From: Gemmatimonadota bacterium
Lineage (GTDB): Bacteria > Gemmatimonadota > Gemmatimonadetes > Longimicrobiales > Gaopeijiaceae
Direction: 5' to 3'
Length of the DNA stretch: 62,807 nucleotides
Assembly (NCBI GenBank): GCA_040882465.1
Contig: JBBEBG010000040.1
Span: 1-62,807, forward strand
Part shown: one piece after another, positions 1-10,523 of the stretch
Layout: the number at the start of each line of letters is the position of its first letter
Numbering within the stretch: the first letter of the stretch is position 1
Translations under genes and position numbers: made by a program
Notes under the pieces: model-generated
The model's input: only the letters and a program-made list of their open reading frames with translations
Told to the model about the DNA's origin: nothing
Database searches by the model: none

Positions 1-128
1 GGGAGCCCGGCCGCTCCGAGCTCGAGGACGGGACGCGCGTTTCAGCTGAAACGTCGAGGCGCCTCTCCTGCGACGCGAGTGTCGTCAAAGTGACGCACGG
101 TTCCGGGGGCGAGGGCTTCGCCGACGGC

Positions 129-275
129 ACGGTGCCCGCAGGAAGCAAGGTGCCCGCGGGAGGCAAGGTCCCCGCGGGAAGCCCGGTTCCCGGAGGAAGC
201 TCGGTTCCCGGAGGAAGCTCGGTCCCCGGCGGAAGCACGGTGCCCCTAGGAGGCATGGTCCCGGCAACAGGCACG
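129..275 (+). repeat. 18-bp tandem repeat coding for a VPxGGS-like linker
   Basis: About eight 18-bp units encode hexapeptides such as VPAGSK, VPGGSS and VPLGGM. They sit in the linker before the HNH core. The intact paralogue has only a short Gly/Ala-rich stretch at this point, so the array probably grew by slippage. Confidence 0.85.
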
Positions 276-450
276 GTCCTCGACGTGGGACGAAAGACCC
301 GCACGATTCCTCCCGCGCTCCGCCGCGCCCTCGAGTCCCGCGACCGCGGATGCCGGTTCCCGGGGTGTGGGTTCCGGTTTACCGACGCGCATCATGTCCG
401 GCACTGGGCCGACGGCGGCAAGACGAGCCTCGCCAACTGTATCCTCCTCT

Positions 451-490
451 GCCGCTTATTCCGACTTCGGAATAAGCGGCATTATGCCGC
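451..490. repeat. Palindromic 35-bp insertion in the HNH gene
   Basis: Bases 451-464 and 467-480 form a perfect 14-bp inverted repeat with a 2-nt loop. A second hairpin (476-482 with 484-490) overlaps it. The hexamer TGCCGC occurs at 450-455 and again at 485-490, as expected for a 6-bp target duplication or a recombination core. Removing 456-490 restores the HNH reading frame, so this is a real insertion rather than ancestral sequence. I cannot assign it to a named element. Confidence 0.75.
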
Positions 491-1118
491 TCTCATCACC
501 GGCTCGTGCATGAGGGGGGTTGGCGGGTGGCATGCAACGGAAACGGGATCGCCCACTTCTACGATCCCCACGGGTTCGTGCGCTACGATGCCCGCCGCCC
601 GGAGGTGAGGCTCCCGAATGATGACCCAGTCGCGGGCATGATGCGGGAGAACGGGAGCTCTGGCCGGGGAGAGGCGGACTCCATCGGCTCCCGGTGCGGC
701 TGGACCGAACCCGGGCCCTGGACCGCCTCCGTGCGCTGGGAGCGTGAGGCCGACATCCCGGCGCCTGTGCTCTTTCGTGCCATCGAGGCGGTGCTGCCGG
801 AAAGAGCGGAGATCTCCCAGCCAGCGTGGGTCGCAGAACGTGCGGAGATGTCGAAGTGACGGCAAGGGCTCAGAGTGGGAGAGGGCGCGTACCCTTGAGC
901 CGGCTTTGGGATTCGCGAGACGCACCCCGGATGGGCCGAGCCCGCGACTCCAGTGAGCTCGAGTGGACTTGCCGCGGCCGCGACGCGCGTCTGCTCCCAC
1001 CTAAAGGCCATACCGAGGACAAAGCCGATACGGGGAGCGCCAGGATGGCGCGCCGGCATGGGGTTGAGGTGGGGATTCTCGGAGTCCGCCGACTGCTACG
1101 GGGCGACCGCGGAGGCGC

Positions 1119-1493
1119 TCACTCCAGAACGATGATCCGCCCGTACATTCCGTCCTGCCAGTGGTATTCGCAGCGGTAGTCGTAGATGCCGGGTGTGATG
1201 AAGGTCACCTCGAGCATGACGCCGCCGCGGGTGTCCCATTCGACCGGTTCCCAGGTGTCGTGCCCTACTGGAGTGATGGAGTGGCGGAGGCCCGAGTTCG
1301 AGCGCCAGGTCACCGTGCCGCTGACCGCGATGTGCACCTCATCGGCAACGAACCGGAAGTCGTCGGTCGTTCGCACCGTCGCCGTCGCGTCCGGACCGCC
1401 TCCTCCGTCCGGGTCGGTCGAGGAGACACATCCCGCCGTGAGGGCCAGGAGGACCGAGAGGCCGAAAAGGCGCCATTCACGACTGCCGACCAT
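1119..1493 (-). CDS. Cupredoxin-like lipoprotein
   Basis: A small secreted blue-copper-type protein of 124 residues. The start at 1493 is chosen because AAGGAG lies just upstream and because it places a lipobox (LTAGC) at the end of a hydrophobic signal. The mature part has the plastocyanin/azurin pattern: GTVTWRSNSGLRHSI (first Cu histidine) and GIYDYRCEYHWQDGMYG, which supplies the Cys, His and Met ligands. It probably carries electrons or binds copper at the membrane. It is divergent from the lipoprotein gene at 1624. Confidence 0.85.
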   Translation of the reverse strand: MVGSREWRLFGLSVLLALTAGCVSSTDPDGGGGPDATATVRTTDDFRFVADEVHIAVSGTVTWRSNSGLRHSITPVGHDTWEPVEWDTRGGVMLEVTFITPGIYDYRCEYHWQDGMYGRIIVLE

Positions 1494-1623
1494 CCACGTC
1501 TCCTTCGAGCGAGCGACCCGCGTGAACTCCCCTGGCTTCGGACACCTGTTCGGTGCGACGGTTCCCACCTAAGATTAGCTCCAACTGACTTCAGTTCCAG
1601 GCCACTCTCCAAGGAGTGATCCG

Positions 1624-2046
1624 ATGCGCATTCGGCGCCGCGTCTCCCAACTCTCGATTCCGATCGTCCTCGCGCTGGCCATGGGGTGCGCCAGCGGCGG
1701 ACAGGCAATCGATGCTTCCGCGGAGGACCGGGACCGAGTGTCCGCGGAAGAGCTCTCGACCGTCTTCGTGTCGGACCTCTATCAGGCGCTCCAGCGACTT
1801 CGTCCGCTCTGGCTCCAGAGCCGCGGAGCTCGGGCCATCAATCAGGAGACCCAGATCGCGGTCGTGGTGAACGGAACCTACTTCGGGCCGGTGGAAATGC
1901 TCAGGCAGATCTCCACGCAGTCCGTGGTCGAAATCCGGCGGCTGGACGGGCCGACGGCCAGCGCGACCATTCCCGGGATCCTGGGAGCGGGGCGCAACAT
2001 CGAGAGCGCGATCGTGGTGCGCCTGGGCGGCGGCCCAAACGACTGA
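1624..2046 (+). CDS. Small lipoprotein with TonB-plug-like domain (copy 1)
   Basis: A 140-residue lipoprotein (lipobox LAMGC) with a good AAGGAG site upstream. It is paralogous to the product of 7410-7832: both have a DAL/QAL-RLRPxWL segment, then a V-V-G/D-N-G strand, a V-EIRRLDGPTAS-like turn, and a final xAIVV strand. This order matches the last part of SusC plug domains (VVDGV, IEVVKG, YGSRAANGVI). I infer a plug-like fold without a barrel. Its role is unknown; its position beside susCD suggests the outer membrane uptake complex. Confidence 0.7.
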   Translation: MRIRRRVSQLSIPIVLALAMGCASGGQAIDASAEDRDRVSAEELSTVFVSDLYQALQRLRPLWLQSRGARAINQETQIAVVVNGTYFGPVEMLRQISTQSVVEIRRLDGPTASATIPGILGAGRNIESAIVVRLGGGPND

Positions 2047-2074
2047 GGGGTTTCTCGGCAGGTCGCGGAAGAAG

Positions 2075-2115
2075 GTGCGGGCGCCCCGGAATCCCCAGGG
2101 CGCCCGCACTATTTT
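2075..2115. terminator. Bidirectional rho-independent terminator
   Basis: A perfect 12-bp GC-rich stem (2075-2086 with 2098-2109) with an 11-nt loop is followed by TATTTT. It lies between the convergent lipoprotein and susD genes and could stop both. Confidence 0.85.
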
Positions 2116-2145
2116 CCGCTTCAGTCCCTCAATTCAAACCGATCC

Positions 2146-3882
2146 TCACGGCCCGCCGTTCCACCCCCCTCCGACCGGTGCATAGACGGCGCCGAACTCG
2201 GTGCCCACTCCGCCGAAGCTGTAGAGGGGGAGCCCGAGCTGCTCAAGCTCCGGCGCGGGGACCGGGAGCTGCGTCCATGAGCCATCCGGCAGCGTCCCAA
2301 ACGCGCGCGAGTCGAACCAGCCGCGCAACACATCGAGCCCGGCGAGCTCGATCATGCGTTCGTACCGGATCACGACATGTAGATTCCCGCACTGGCCGGT
2401 GTCGGTCCTGGGCACGCAGTCGTCAGCTCCCGGAGCCGAATGCGGTGCGCCATTGACCGTCGCCGGCGGGAGATTGGTCGGGAAGTTTCCCTGGTTCGGA
2501 AGCGTGTGCCCTCTTGTCCGGGTCACGTTCACGAGGTCCCGGGCCGCGGTGAGATTCCCCATGTGGAAGTTGGCCTCCGCCGCGTAGAGACGGTTCTCAT
2601 CTGCGGTCGCGATCTCCGCATCACCCGTATTGAAGTTCGACGTGGTCGAATTGACGGTCGTTGCGATACCGATGCCGTGCTGGTGCCGCCGCCACTGGTA
2701 CGCGGGCCGGTAATACGTCCCGCTGGCACCGCAACACTGGTCGGAAAGCGAATTGGCCATGTTCCGGAAGTAGGCGCCCTGTGCCCGGTAGTTCACGCTC
2801 TGGAACACGACGAAGCCCGGTCCCTGGATCCGGCGGTCCGGCGTCACCATCTGGAACCGGTCGCGGCCCTCGAGACCTGCGGCGATCCAGCTCTGGTATC
2901 CGCCCGAGATATCCGCCGGCCCAACCATGCGATAATCCGCGCCCATCCCAGCGTTCCCCCGCGCGATGGTGCTGTAGAGTCCGCTCGGGCGGCTGCCGTC
3001 CAACACCACGGAAAAGTCGGACTGGAGGCCTGCAGTCGTATGCGTGAGGACGCGCGTCCAATTCACCGCTGCGCGCTCGGCCGGATTGCGCGCGTGCATG
3101 ATCAAGAAGCGGGCCTGCATCGTATTGATGAAGGGAATCAGCTCGGCCGGACCGACGGGCGCCGCCGCACCGAACCACTGAGCCGAACCGGCCGAGCGAT
3201 CGGGGTAAACGATGTCCGGATTCGCCAGGAGGAGGGCTTTCGCATCGTCCAACACGCTGAGTGACGCCTCGAGTGCGACGTCGCGATCCACCAGGTATTG
3301 AAGCGCCTCCTCGTTACTCTCCGGGAAGACCTCATCCGAGGGGATGATCATCGCTTGGTCGAACATATTCGCGAGATATCCCCATGCGAACCCCTGCATC
3401 ATCATCGCGAACGCCCGGGCGCGCGGTGTTTGATCCACCTCGCCGATGATCAGCTCTGTCGCGTCCTCCCCCTGCGTAAGGCGGAGAATGTCGTCCGCCA
3501 CCGACCAGACACGGAGGAAGTCCCTGTACATATTGCGTGGCCCATGCACGCCGATTGTGGTCGCAATGGAAACCAGGTTGGAGTGTTCCTGGCGCGGCTC
3601 CGCCGTCTCGTTGGCGGTGCCGCCCAGGACCGTCGTCGCCGTCATCTCGCTCGCGTACCCGGCGAACATCATCTCCGTGTCCACCGCGGACGAGGCGAGG
3701 TGGATCGCGGGGAAGTACTCCTCGTCGAAGACCCCGGCGATCAACTGCTGGACGTCCTCGGGGTTCGTGATCGCCCGGAAACGGTCGGGGTCGTTCAGGT
3801 TTCGCACAACGAGATCCTGGCATCCGGTCGCCGCCACAAGGAGCGCGGCGAGGAGGAGGACTCTTCTGGATTGGGAAAACAT
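2146..3882 (-). CDS. SusD/RagB-family nutrient-binding outer-membrane lipoprotein
   Basis: A 578-residue protein of usual SusD length. It has a signal peptide with lipobox (AATGC) and the typical N-terminal start DLVVxNLNDPD. Helical TPR-like segments follow (GFAWGYLANMFDQAMI near residue 170, and a C-terminal YERMIELAGLDVLRGWFDSRAFG block). It is expected to sit on the cell surface and deliver ligand to the SusC barrel. It starts 31 bp after the end of susC, with AAGAGG upstream, so the two are co-transcribed. The substrate cannot be told from sequence; no glycan-degrading enzymes are nearby. Confidence 0.92.
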   Translation of the reverse strand: MFSQSRRVLLLAALLVAATGCQDLVVRNLNDPDRFRAITNPEDVQQLIAGVFDEEYFPAIHLASSAVDTEMMFAGYASEMTATTVLGGTANETAEPRQEHSNLVSIATTIGVHGPRNMYRDFLRVWSVADDILRLTQGEDATELIIGEVDQTPRARAFAMMMQGFAWGYLANMFDQAMIIPSDEVFPESNEEALQYLVDRDVALEASLSVLDDAKALLLANPDIVYPDRSAGSAQWFGAAAPVGPAELIPFINTMQARFLIMHARNPAERAAVNWTRVLTHTTAGLQSDFSVVLDGSRPSGLYSTIARGNAGMGADYRMVGPADISGGYQSWIAAGLEGRDRFQMVTPDRRIQGPGFVVFQSVNYRAQGAYFRNMANSLSDQCCGASGTYYRPAYQWRRHQHGIGIATTVNSTTSNFNTGDAEIATADENRLYAAEANFHMGNLTAARDLVNVTRTRGHTLPNQGNFPTNLPPATVNGAPHSAPGADDCVPRTDTGQCGNLHVVIRYERMIELAGLDVLRGWFDSRAFGTLPDGSWTQLPVPAPELEQLGLPLYSFGGVGTEFGAVYAPVGGGWNGGP

Positions 3883-3913
3883 GCAAGTAGCCTCTTGGTC
3901 GGAAGGGATCTCG

Positions 3914-6900
3914 TTAGAAGGTCACCTGGAATTCGAGCGTGTAGCTCGACGTCGGTGGATAGGTCCCGCCGGCGCCCGTTTGCGAACCTCCAGTGAGGCT
4001 GAGTCCCTGCTCGGGATCGAATCCGCGGTAGTTGGTCCAAGTGGCGAGCTCTCTCCCAATGAGCCCGAGGGTGAGGCTGGAGATCCCCATATCCGATAGG
4101 CGGAGACGCGCGAGCTGGCTTTGCGGCACGCGGTAGTTGAGGATCACCTGCCGGAGCTTGAGGTAGCTTCCATCTTCGTTGAAAAAGTCGGTGCCCCCGG
4201 CGTCGGAGTACAGTGTGGTCCAATACGCGCGAGGCTTCTTGAGCCCCGTGGGCCGCCCCGCCTGGTCCATCATCGGCGCGACGTCGTCCGGTATCATGTA
4301 TTGGTGCTGCGTGTTCTGGACGTCGCCGCCGACCTTGGCGTGAAGCTGCGCATGAAGGGAGAAGGCGCCGAAGTTGAAGTTGTTAATCCACCCGAGGTTG
4401 ATGTGGGCGGCATCGCCGACCTGCTTGCGGAGGAGGCCGCCACCGCCGTCCCGCTCGCGGAAGGGAATTCCCCAATTGTAAGTCTCTCCGCCGATCGTCG
4501 TCGAGGTACCCCAAAGGTCGTCCCCGGTATTCAGATCGTCGTCCGTGCCGGCGCCGTCCGTGTAGGAGAATCCCTCACCCACCCAGACAAGATATCCGTC
4601 GTCATTCCTGTCGAACTGATCCTCGAACCCGATGAGCTCCCCGCCGCGATGTGCCTCGAACAGAGCATCGGAGGTGACGAAGTTGTATCCCCATACCTCG
4701 TAAACGCCGCGGCCCGCGCAACGGAACCGCCATGCGGGCGATTCGCACGCGAAGGGCCACTCCTCGATCACCGAGTCGGAACGGTCGGCCACGAAGGTCG
4801 TCGTCCATCCGAAGCGTGGCGTCTGGATGACAGGGGCGTTGAGCGTGAACTCGATCGTGTTTCCCTCGATCGTCCCGCCATTCTGCCACTGAGTAGGATA
4901 CCCGTAGAAGGCGAGGAGATTTGCCGTCTGGAGCTGCTCCGACGTCTGCTGCCAGGCGTACGTCGCCGTCATTTCCCAGCGATCGAATAAAACGGCATTG
5001 ACCGAAACGTCGTGCTCGACCGTTTGCGACGGCCTGAGGAACCGGTTGCCGAGCTGTGACTTCGTCGGGACGCCGTTCGAGAGAGACCAGACCTCGTACT
5101 GCGCCGAGAAGGGCGGCCGGCCTCCCGCGGTGCCTCGCGAGACGCTGATTCCGAGTTCATCCACGTTCGGAATGTTGAACCAATCTTCTTCCGAGATCCG
5201 CCACTTGCCGGCGACCCGGTAATAGGTCTGCCAACGCTCTTCCCGTCCAAAGAGGGAGCTTCCGTCTCGACGGACGAGGGCGGTCAGGATGTATCGGGCG
5301 TCATAGTCGAACGCCGTGTCCACCAGCCACCCGTTCGATCGGACTTCTTCCTCGCTGGAGCCGGAAAACTGGCTCGATGAGGGGACCGCCTCGAGGGTCG
5401 GCGTATCTTTGATCACGAGCACGTTCCCCGACGCGGAGATGTCCTCTTCCCGGTCACGCTCCATCAGCCCGCGGATCGTGACGCGCGTGTTCAACGGACC
5501 GAAGTCACGGCGGAGGGACGCCTGGAGCTCCGCATTCCAGGTGTCGTTGAGGCCCTGGCTATAACTCAGATTGCCGTCCTCGTCGGTTCCGACAACGACA
5601 CCGAGCGGCGTGTAATTGCGGGTTTTCGAGTCCTCTCGGTCGTAGCTGATGTTTCCGAAGAACGAGACCCAGGCGGCAGGATCCCATCGCAGCTGCGCGC
5701 TCGCGAGGGTACGAATCTCGCGTTGCTCGTCCTCGACGATGCCTTCGACCCAAAGGGGATTCTGAAAGGTCGTGTTCGGGTTCGGAAACTTGGTGAATCC
5801 TCCGATGGAGTCCTCGGCCGTCACCGGAGGCGCCAGGAGGTTGATGTCCGGCGGAGCCGTGTTAGAGGCCGTTGAGGCTCCCATTCACGTCGTCGGAGTA
5901 AGTGCGCGCGTGGAAGGCGCTGATCCCGAGGCTGAGCGAGTTGAGGAAGCGATGGTCCAGGTTGATTCGAAACGAGTTGCGGCTGTACCCGTCGTTGTTC
6001 GGAAGGGCACCCTGCTGGACGTTTCGATTGAGACTGAGAAAGAAGTTTGTGTCCGTCGTGTTTTGCGCCAGGTTGACGGTGTGTTGTTGTTGACTTCCCG
6101 GATTCCACACCTCGTTGATGTTGTCGTAGATGGGGCCCGGGTAAGGGTTGTCCATGAAGAGGCGGAATTGGTTCCCCGTCTCCTGAATGCGGTCGCCGCG
6201 GCCAACGGCATTCCCGTCCGCGTCGGCGTAGCTCATGCCGTCGGCCGTAAGCGCATAGAAGTGGTGCGTGGGAAGCCGCAGCCCCTCGATGGCCGACTGC
6301 CATCCAAACTCGGATCTCGCCGTCATCTGGGTGGTGCCGAACGCGAGGCCCGAGCCACGATTCGTCGTGATCGCGATGACGCCGTTCGCGGCGCGCGATC
6401 CATAGAGGGACGCCGCGGCCGCACCCTTCACGACCTCGATGCTCAGGATGTCCATGGACTCGAGGTCCGCGCTTGTCCCGCCCAGGATCACGCCGTCCAC
6501 GACGATGAGGGGGGTGCCGGCACCGATGCTGGTCGGGCTGCGGAGCTGGATCGCCGCGGCCGCGCCCGGCTCACCACTTCCGCGCGCGATGGTCACCCCC
6601 GCGATCTGCCCCTGAAGATTCTGGATTGCCGATCCGGCCACGGGAACCGGCATGTTCTGCCGGTCGAGCCGCCCGATCGTGATGGGAGACCTCACCCCCT
6701 CGACGGGGTCGATCAACCCGGTCGCGACGATCGCGTTCAGCTGAAGGGGCTGAACCGCCATCGTGAGGTTCTGGACCGTCGCCTGACCTGCCGTGACGGT
6801 GACGCCCGGCTGCTGGAACTCGAGGTAGCCGATCCGCTGAATCTGCAGCGTGTAGGTTCCCGCCGGGACGCCGGCGATCGTGTAACTGCCGTTACCGCCG

Positions 6901-7097
6901 GTGGTGATCCCGAGGGTTGTCCCCACGACGGAGATCTGCGCTGCGACGACGGGCTCTCCCGTGTCCGCGTTGGTCACCGTGCCGGTGATCTGTCCCGCCT
7001 GGGCAAGCAGCCCGGAGGCGCCGATCGCGGCGAGGAACGTCGTCAGCGCGGCAACCCTCAAAGGTTGCCGCACCCATCGAACGTATGGTGAGCACAT
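3914..7097 (-). pseudogene. SusC/RagA TonB-dependent transporter, split by a frameshift
   Basis: The first 411 residues contain a signal peptide, a carboxypeptidase-regulatory-like domain (about 35-115), and a plug domain ending TPLIVVDGV...GSRAANGVIAITT (about 125-245). A second open frame (5884 to 3914, 656 residues) carries the rest of the 22-strand-type barrel, ending LEFQVTF. The two frames overlap by 23 bp near 5862-5884, and joining them gives a normal SusC length of about 1,060 residues. There is no homopolymer at the junction, so either a true mutation or an assembly error is possible. TCGGAG precedes the ATG at 7097. Confidence 0.85.
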
Positions 7098-7409
7098 GAT
7101 TCTACTCCGATGATGCGAGGAATTGTGCTAGACGGACCAACGATTCGTGCCGGACCCGGGCAGCGGAGCCGCGAAACCACGGTGGAGGGCAGCGTCCGCC
7201 TTCGCAAGGCACGCGTAAGGGCGTGTCTGACTCGATCCGTGATGAGTGGGCACACCCCGTAATAGGTCACGAGCCCGAAAAACGCAAGAACTCCCTGACA
7301 TCGCCCGGACATACTTTCGCATTCGCGATCCTCCACTTATTCGTGAGAAGCTAACGCGCCATGGTGCGGCACAAGGCGCGTATAACCGCCCATCGACTTC
7401 GGAGAAATC
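7098..7409. other. Divergent intergenic region upstream of susC and a lipoprotein gene
   Basis: This 312-bp stretch separates the divergent susC and 7410 genes and should hold both promoters. I see no clear promoter hexamers, operator dyad or RNA element. Confidence 0.5.
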
Positions 7410-7832
7410 ATGAACGGTCCAAGTTTCACGCGACCGCTGTTCGGTGCCGTCGTCCTCCTCGGTACTTTCGGTTCCGCGGCGCTCCTGTCCGGCTGCGCGA
7501 GCACCGGCGGGGGTGGTGCCGGCGGCGGCGGCGCCTTCGACGCGATCACGGAGCAGGAGGTCATCGCGACCGACGCCACCGACGCGCTCGACATGATCCG
7601 CCGCCTCCGGCCCAATTGGCTGAACCCGATCGGGGGGCCGGCCTTGCTCTACGTAGACAACCAGCGCCGGGGGGAGTCCGGCGGAATCGAGTCGTTCCTG
7701 CGCGCGCAATCCGCGAACTCGATCGTCCTGGTGGAGTGGGTCCGTCCCGAAGCTGCCATACGACTCCCCGGGGCGCCTCTCACGGGAACCGTCGGCGGCG
7801 CCATCATGGTCAGGACACGGGCGGGGGGATAA
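7410..7832 (+). CDS. Small lipoprotein with TonB-plug-like domain (copy 2)
   Basis: A 140-residue lipoprotein (lipobox LLSGC followed by a Gly-rich tether), paralogous to the 1624 product. Shared core: ALDMIRRLRPNWL, ALLYVDNQ, SIVLVEWVRPEAA, and GGAIMVRTR. The last three correspond in order to the VVDG, IEVVKG and NGVIAITT strands of the SusC plug next door. The start has GGAG 6 nt upstream. It is divergent from susC, so this locus has a plug-like lipoprotein on either side of the transporter genes. Confidence 0.7.
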   Translation: MNGPSFTRPLFGAVVLLGTFGSAALLSGCASTGGGGAGGGGAFDAITEQEVIATDATDALDMIRRLRPNWLNPIGGPALLYVDNQRRGESGGIESFLRAQSANSIVLVEWVRPEAAIRLPGAPLTGTVGGAIMVRTRAGG

Positions 7833-7856
7833 CGCGGTCCCCCGGCGTTTTTTTTG
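7822..7856 (+). terminator. Rho-independent terminator
   Basis: A CGGGGG/CCCCCG stem that overlaps the stop codon of the lipoprotein gene, then a run of eight T residues (7848-7855). Confidence 0.75.
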
Positions 7857-9239: not shown

Positions 9240-10523
9240 TCAACCCTCCTCGATTCTGTATTGCACGGCCCAGGGCACGCCGAACTCGTCGGGAATCGCG
9301 GCCCAGAATCGATCTCCGCGATGCCACGCGACTCGCGCCTCGTCCGGAAGGTCGATCAATCCCCTGGCGCGCCCTTTCGCGTCCAGAACGATCCATCGCT
9401 GAGGTTCCCCCGGGCGGATCGAAAGGCGTAGCCAGACCGATCCGTCCTGGGCGACCCAGGGATAGGAGAGGGGGAGCTGGAACTCCGGAAAGTCCATGGC
9501 GCCGCGGAGGGCATGGGCGATCGCTTCCCAGTTCGAAGGAGGAGGAGGGGCATCCGCCCCCACAAAAAAGGGAACGAATCCGCCTTCCTCACCTCGAGCC
9601 GCGCGCGCCGCAATCGAGTCCAAGTCGGGTCCCGTGTATGGTGCCGGCCGGTAGTGGAGGATGTTGCTGAAGAGGGTATCGGCCGCCGTCCCGATCCTCG
9701 TGACGCGAACGATTCCTTCTCCCGAAGTCGGCGCGAGCGGTGTTTCCACCGACAGGTACCCATCCTCCCGTGCCTCCCACCAGGGGAGAGTCGTCGGTGG
9801 ATTCGGGACGAAGAACTGCCGCCCGCCCACGTCGATGGTCCCCGCGTTGGCGGACTCCTCCGAAGGGGGCCGCCACATTCGCGGGGGCGGACGTCCGGAC
9901 CAGCCGATCGTGTCCGTCACGGTCCCGGTCACGTCGAAGAGGACGAAGGGGACGGGAATGCTGTCTGTGGGAAGGACCCCTGACGGGGAGGCATTCCGGG
10001 TGTAGGTGATCCTTCCGAGGTACCCGGTGAATTGCCCGTCGGGACGCATGGCCCAGGGGATGACGCCGCCCACACCAGTCGGAAGATGCACGGAGACGCC
10101 GTCCGTTCGTCCCGTGGCCAGGACCCTCCCGCGCCGATCGAAGTGGGTCATGCGGCTGCCGCGCCCTTCCACGGTCCAGACGGTATCTCCGTGGACGCCG
10201 AAACGGGGCGCCGCCGTGAACTCACCCGGACCCTCGCCGCGGCGTCCAATGCGACGGATGATGGCCCCCGCGGGGTCGAAGACCCGGATCTCGGGGACGC
10301 TCGCCTCCACGACGTAGAGGTTGCCGTCCCGGTCCACGTCCATCGCGCTGATCCGTGAGAAGCCGGCACCGGGATCGTCGAGGTCGCCGATGCGAAGTTC
10401 CTCGATGGCGACGAGGCGGGGGAGGTCATCCAGGTGGATGACGGCCCCGGGAGCCGGAGCCGAGCAGCCCGCGCCGGCGATCGCAAAGATTCCCAGGGTG
10501 GCGGCGCGCTTCGATCCCTTCAT
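9240..10523 (-). CDS. 6-bladed beta-propeller lipoprotein coupled to RND operon
   Basis: A 427-residue protein with a short signal and lipobox (GAGC). Blade motifs are clear: AMDVDRDGNLYVVEASVPEIRVFDPAG then IIRRIGRRGEGPGEF, the same hallmark as in the 7971 product. Its ATG overlaps the stop of the second RND gene by 4 bp (ATGA), so it is the last gene of the efflux operon and probably translated by re-initiation. Such a gene is not a standard part of RND systems; it may sense or bind an exported compound, but that is inference. Confidence 0.83.
   Translation of the reverse strand: MKGSKRAATLGIFAIAGAGCSAPAPGAVIHLDDLPRLVAIEELRIGDLDDPGAGFSRISAMDVDRDGNLYVVEASVPEIRVFDPAGAIIRRIGRRGEGPGEFTAAPRFGVHGDTVWTVEGRGSRMTHFDRRGRVLATGRTDGVSVHLPTGVGGVIPWAMRPDGQFTGYLGRITYTRNASPSGVLPTDSIPVPFVLFDVTGTVTDTIGWSGRPPPRMWRPPSEESANAGTIDVGGRQFFVPNPPTTLPWWEAREDGYLSVETPLAPTSGEGIVRVTRIGTAADTLFSNILHYRPAPYTGPDLDSIAARAARGEEGGFVPFFVGADAPPPPSNWEAIAHALRGAMDFPEFQLPLSYPWVAQDGSVWLRLSIRPGEPQRWIVLDAKGRARGLIDLPDEARVAWHRGDRFWAAIPDEFGVPWAVQYRIEEG

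Follow-up and report, generated by a model that had tools for sequence, protein, structure and literature searches.

Two small lipoprotein genes that flank a susC-susD pair (susCD) in a Gemmatimonadota genome appear, from family-level homology and predicted structure, to encode free plug domains of the type found in TonB-dependent transporters (TBDTs), carried on a lipid anchor and lacking a barrel. The genes, here called P1 and P2, lie on the plus strand of a window of 62,807 nucleotides (the whole stretch of DNA analyzed; assembly GCA_040882465.1, contig JBBEBG010000040.1), and the susCD pair sits between them on the minus strand. In TBDTs the plug is known as an integral domain on the same chain as the barrel. 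The two genes are:

1624 to 2046, plus strand: P1, predicted free-plug lipoprotein of 140 amino acids, member of a SusC-linked clade, lipobox Cys 22 (open reading frame (ORF), AlphaFold2, Foldseek, VIA-align and tree).
7410 to 7832, plus strand: P2, predicted free-plug lipoprotein of 140 amino acids, divergent long-branch member, lipobox Cys 29 (same lines of evidence).

The original prediction held that these two lipoproteins share a core. BLASTP bears this out: as a single comparison it gave 36 identities over 121 columns (30%, E 3e-7), an E value that places the common core beyond chance. At the start of each protein is a signal peptide with a lipobox at its end, and a short flexible linker joins the predicted lipidated cysteine to the folded part. 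Neither carries a barrel on the same chain, as had been claimed; both end with the last plug strand. Lacking a barrel, the P1/P2 family is therefore not itself a TBDT.

Plug kinship is visible only in the family profile and in structure, since direct BLASTP of P1 or P2 against the N-terminal piece of the neighboring SusC gave no significant match, and neither protein individually matched a Pfam family at E ≤ 1 (NCBIfam likewise offered nothing useful). A profile of 47 family members, compared by hhalign with the plugs of SusCs from family loci, matched at 98.1% (E 7.9e-14, 94 columns); controls comprising CarboxypepD_reg, four barrel segments, SusD and six column-shuffled versions gave about 1% or less. 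PF07715, the plug family, was matched by 16/47 members at E ≤ 1 (best 4.7e-7), and TIGR04056 by nine of them at E ≤ 0.01. Searched against PDB sequences, the family profile returned TBDTs in 21 of 23 matches at E ≤ 10, with a best E of only 0.0045, and BtuB aligned over profile positions 34-128 of 129, nearly the whole domain. By homology, the P1/P2 family is a predicted TBDT plug domain. The earlier suggestion of a plug likeness thus stands in outline; it had been confined to the end of the plug, but the match spans most of the domain, and the strand motifs proposed for that end hold approximately (VVVNG, VVEIRRLD and SAIVVR in P1; LYVDN, IVLVEWVR and GAIMVR in P2).

The predicted structures agree. 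AlphaFold2 models of the mature proteins reached a mean pLDDT of 82.1 and a pTM of 0.74 for P1, and 81.3 and 0.72 for P2. With either model, Foldseek ranks 1-38 against the PDB were all TBDTs (best E 3.7e-3 for P1 and 2.4e-3 for P2), and no unrelated fold appeared among these ranks. The best VIA-align match of P1 was the SusC BT1763 (Z 8.3, rmsd 3.4, 98 residues aligned) and that of P2 was a modelled entry of Fiu (Z 8.1, rmsd 5.0, 94 aligned), Z values near 8 being middling by the tool's own note. Both proteins are accordingly modelled with the TBDT plug fold.

The profile set of 47 was drawn from 53 distinct members, excluding L009 and L018 (truncated), L011 (a fusion), L037 (without signal peptide), L058 (a near-copy) and L006 (no stated reason). 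The fusion, L011:1447-3198, is a 584-residue protein in which a family member is joined to a long C-terminal part resembling TPR repeats by eye. Conserved in the family are the Arg (41/47) and Gly (39/47) of an RG pair, the motif V-x-x-D/N-G and an invariant Ala. Two further motifs, R-L-R-P-x-W-L and A-T-x-R-x-G-x-x-H, are family-specific and do not occur in the SusC plug consensus. In 43/47 members the Lys found in the V-V-K-G motif of SusC plugs gives way to D, S or N, and the hhalign alignment shows that about 14 residues after the first helix, in the N-terminal half of SusC plugs, are missing. The lipobox pattern was found in 114 of 133 extracted members, P1 and P2 included, in a set that contains some identical or near-identical loci. 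Asp at position +2, the inner-membrane retention signal by the rule from E. coli, occurs in none of these 114. A loose TonB-box pattern was found in 0/133 linkers, yet the same pattern detects only 12/40 SusCs. The family genes are, to judge from their sequences, real and under purifying selection (dN/dS 0 to 0.28 across 17 close pairs). Together with the profile match and the lack of a barrel, the lipobox counts sustain the proposal of a family of free, membrane-anchored plugs.

The family is widespread in its phylum. Relatives at E ≤ 0.001 were found for P1 in 53 and for P2 in 46 of 58 related genomes, the source genome being one of the 58; the 47-member profile detected the family in 56/58 of these at 1e-5 and in 133/200 genomes across the phylum, apparently Gemmatimonadota, at 1e-12. 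Scanning named genomes turned up 94 relatives, reduced to 79 distinct loci; most of the records are Gemmatimonadetes/Gemmatimonadota, Gemmatimonadales or Longimicrobiales, one is from Ignavibacteriales (L076), and six loci lie in records labelled Gammaproteobacteria, titles taken as given. When SusC plugs and the plugs of barrel-less CarboxypepD_reg+plug proteins were included in the tree, all 47 family rows fell on one side of a branch with support 86, not starred. Four rows had been taken out of this tree (three family ORFs mislabelled as CarboxypepD_reg+plug and a SusC with a very long branch) and one had been given a new label; with this curation the changes required by the family dropped from 3 to 1. 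Because the family branches apart from SusC plugs, that of the window included, P1 is not a fragment of the neighboring SusC.

The genetic link of the family to SusC is real but partial. SusC lay within 5 kb of 14/40 family loci as against 5/40 random windows (Fisher two-sided p 0.034), and SusD within 5 kb of 12/40 as against 2/40 (p 0.0064); the 40 case loci were taken from the strongest matches on longer contigs, five of them shortened by contig ends. SusC was counted only as ORFs of at least 600 amino acids, because the SusC profile also matches barrel-less proteins. Neighboring genes were read through Pfam on representatives, all-against-all clustering being confounded by antisense ORFs. 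Across genomes, with at most 11 first-look SusC candidates scored per genome and 150 SusCs and 150 family matches listed, 18/150 SusCs among the matches listed had a listed member within 5 kb, compared with 1.4 expected under uniform placement. All 18 align to TIGR04056 from position 1-3, so their own plug is present and the free plugs are additional. In the remaining 26/40 case loci no SusC lay within 5 kb, and SusC is therefore not the general partner of the family. On the family tree the SusC-linked label clusters: it takes 16 changes, compared with an average of 26 for shuffled labels, and 0/500 shuffles were as low. The clade of P1 is linked in 7/8 rows; P2 sits on a long branch of unsure position, in a group of 30 rows, 25 of them unlinked. 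The expectation that homologues cluster with SusC genes is hence supported as an enrichment, but it fails for the majority of loci.

The arrangement of linked genes varies. In 65 linked pairs, a biased sample containing near-copies, the member lies downstream of susC on the same strand in 38, upstream on the opposite strand in 17 (as P2), upstream on the same strand in 7 and downstream on the opposite strand in 3 (as P1, and as L178, a second copy in the source genome). The stop codon of SusD is at most 150 nucleotides from the start codon of the member in 12 of the 38 co-directional downstream cases. The order plug-SusC-SusD-plug is found again in a second genus (L220). Family members also occur as tandem pairs, 9 among the 150 matches listed (for example, L223, L224, L225 and L236). 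Barrel-less proteins with CarboxypepD_reg repeats and a C-terminal plug (L104:12379-13818, L113:9448-10866, L119:12371-13735 and L061:10406-11308) occur within 9 kb of members in 6/40 case windows and 0/40 controls, and at L068:8091-9404, directly before a family member, CarboxypepD_reg and a plug are followed by about 150 residues that resemble a short beta-barrel by eye.

In the window itself, the features between and beside the two lipoprotein genes are:

2073 to 2112 (ends approximate), no strand assigned: strong GC-rich hairpin between the 3' ends of P1 and susD (RNA fold of 2044-2150, sequence).
2146 to 3882, minus strand: SusD-like lipoprotein gene (PF07980 E 0.0021, below the curated cut-off; 5e-85 to a local SusD profile that was built with this SusD included).
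3914 to 5884, minus strand: C-terminal SusC frame (barrel), read in another frame than the N-terminal piece (TIGR04056 positions 381-981, E 7.6e-68).
5862 to 7097, minus strand: N-terminal SusC frame with CarboxypepD_reg, plug and first part of the barrel (PF13620; PF07715 E 1.7e-9; TIGR04056 6.2e-59).
7824 to 7853, plus strand: terminator-like hairpin with T-run at the P2 3' end (sequence, pattern scan), of a kind no commoner in this region than in shuffled sequence.

The susC gene (3914-7097) thus consists of two overlapping frames (overlap 5862-5884), with an intact homologue at L137:1441-4578; the split may stem from a sequencing error or from a real frame break. P1 and susD converge over the first hairpin (-55.9 kcal/mol, z -5.6), which is probably a terminator common to both. 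Since P1 is convergent with susD and P2 divergent from susC, the two lipoprotein genes form transcription units separate from susCD in the source genome. A promoter scan of the region gave no more matches than shuffles did. Two six-bladed beta-propeller proteins adjoin P2 (7854-9200, plus strand, and 9240-10523, minus strand); both are DUF5128-like, the first below the curated cut-off. On the other side, a plastocyanin-like copper-binding protein (1119-1568, minus strand; PF00127 E 4.9e-7) is divergent from P1, and a frame at the window start (3-608, plus strand) encodes degenerate VPAGS/VPGGS repeats with an HNH-like stretch, both recognized by eye.

We propose, with somewhat less than even confidence, that the lipid-anchored plug docks in trans on or in a beta-barrel as a passive second stopper or gate. 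Held at the outer membrane by its lipid, the free plug might enter the barrel or cover its periplasmic mouth. Members of the P1 clade, P1 included, would pair with the SusC encoded alongside; P2 and the unlinked majority could serve other barrels, or their fold might have been taken to another binding role. Because no TonB box is recognizable and the N-terminal half is shortened, the free plug would not be removed by TonB and could act as a second stopper or gate during displacement of SusC's own plug. Docking in trans is made plausible by FpvAI, whose plug and barrel are reported to restore pyocin import in trans when supplied separately (PMC10994204). In a published model, a force applied at the TonB box unfolds the proximal half of the plug and the remainder stays in the barrel (PMC10994204, PMC11658791); since the half pulled by TonB is partly missing in the free plugs, a role as second stopper is plausible too. 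We infer that P1 and P2 may act on SusC in trans, docking on it and gating it. The more specific version, in which lipid-anchored second plugs gate SusC-type barrels in trans, two corks per barrel with TonB pulling only one, is a more doubtful proposition. Several observations weigh against the docking proposal: replacement of the Lys weakens the case for docking in the lumen in the classical manner, SusC comes with its own plug, most family loci have no SusC nearby, P1 and P2 are transcribed separately on the strand opposite susCD, the frame of the window SusC is broken, and the VIA-align scores are middling.

The strongest rival, nearly equal in weight to docking, holds that a single plug domain left transporters long ago and is now a general membrane-anchored adaptor or ligand-binding module, with proximity to SusC in some clades reflecting operon co-regulation instead of docking on a barrel. 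Such repurposing, which we consider a serious though still tentative possibility, would account for the 26/40 unlinked loci, the two family-specific motifs and the barrel-less CarboxypepD_reg+plug relatives. The L011 fusion also favors it, as do members that lie beside unrelated genes, such as an M20 peptidase and cytochrome b (L119) or an outer-membrane beta-barrel protein (L099). Against it stand the excess of SusCs with a neighboring member over uniform placement, among the matches listed, and the linkage in nearly all rows of the P1 clade. A free plug might instead act in assembly, occupying or chaperoning a nascent SusC barrel until the barrel's own plug has folded. The plug fold, the lipid anchor and the position as third gene closely following susD in 12/38 co-directional downstream cases would suit such a factor, but 132/150 listed SusCs have no listed member within 5 kb and members at SusC-less loci would be left unexplained; we regard this as improbable.

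Two further explanations would remove the need for any function in trans. The lipoproteins could be remnants of a duplicated susC, or could supply the plug that a split transporter lacks, as homology to the SusC plug and the frame-broken SusC of the window might suggest. The lipobox and own start codon of the family speak against this, and we rejected it on the separate tree branch (support 86, not starred), purifying selection and the intact plugs of linked SusCs, leaving it a very small probability. Slighter still is the chance that the resemblance is fortuitous and the fold of P1 and P2 something other than a plug. That neither protein has a direct BLASTP or single-protein Pfam match is in keeping with such an explanation, but profile-profile comparison, Pfam matches of members, the profile search of the PDB and two structure models all agree on a plug.

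The plug domain is known, and some family members would presumably carry its name in databases; a stand-alone, lipid-anchored plug family is apparently unstudied. We found no paper on this plug family by title or abstract in topical searches of the open-licence PMC literature, and a text search of a paper on the type IX secretion system (T9SS) translocon gave no mention of a plug or plug domain, of TonB-dependent or of SusC (PMC10994853). A separate, tethered plug across a phylum would reveal either gating divided between two plugs or a second career for the plug fold. If the former is true, TonB-dependent transport would gain a new component, trans-gating plugs whose genes accompany susCD in one phylum.

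Among known systems, the lipoproteins of SusCD loci resemble P1 and P2 in being encoded with susC. SusD and surface glycan-binding proteins have SusD-type or glycan-binding folds, whereas the P1/P2 family is predicted to have the plug fold. The superinfection exclusion lipoprotein Llp with FhuA (PDB 8a60) is similar, going by the title of the entry, as a small lipoprotein acting on a TBDT, and the plug match of the P1 model to this entry falls on FhuA. A further known system is the PF07715 plug of SusC/RagA and BtuB, with which the family shares the predicted fold, the order of elements, the RG pair, V-x-x-D-G and the final A..G....G-x-I-x-V-x-T. In contrast to those plugs, the free plugs have no barrel, carry a lipobox in place of CarboxypepD_reg and apparently also of the TonB box, are about 14 residues shorter after the first helix and possess RLRPxWL and ATxRxGxxH motifs of their own.

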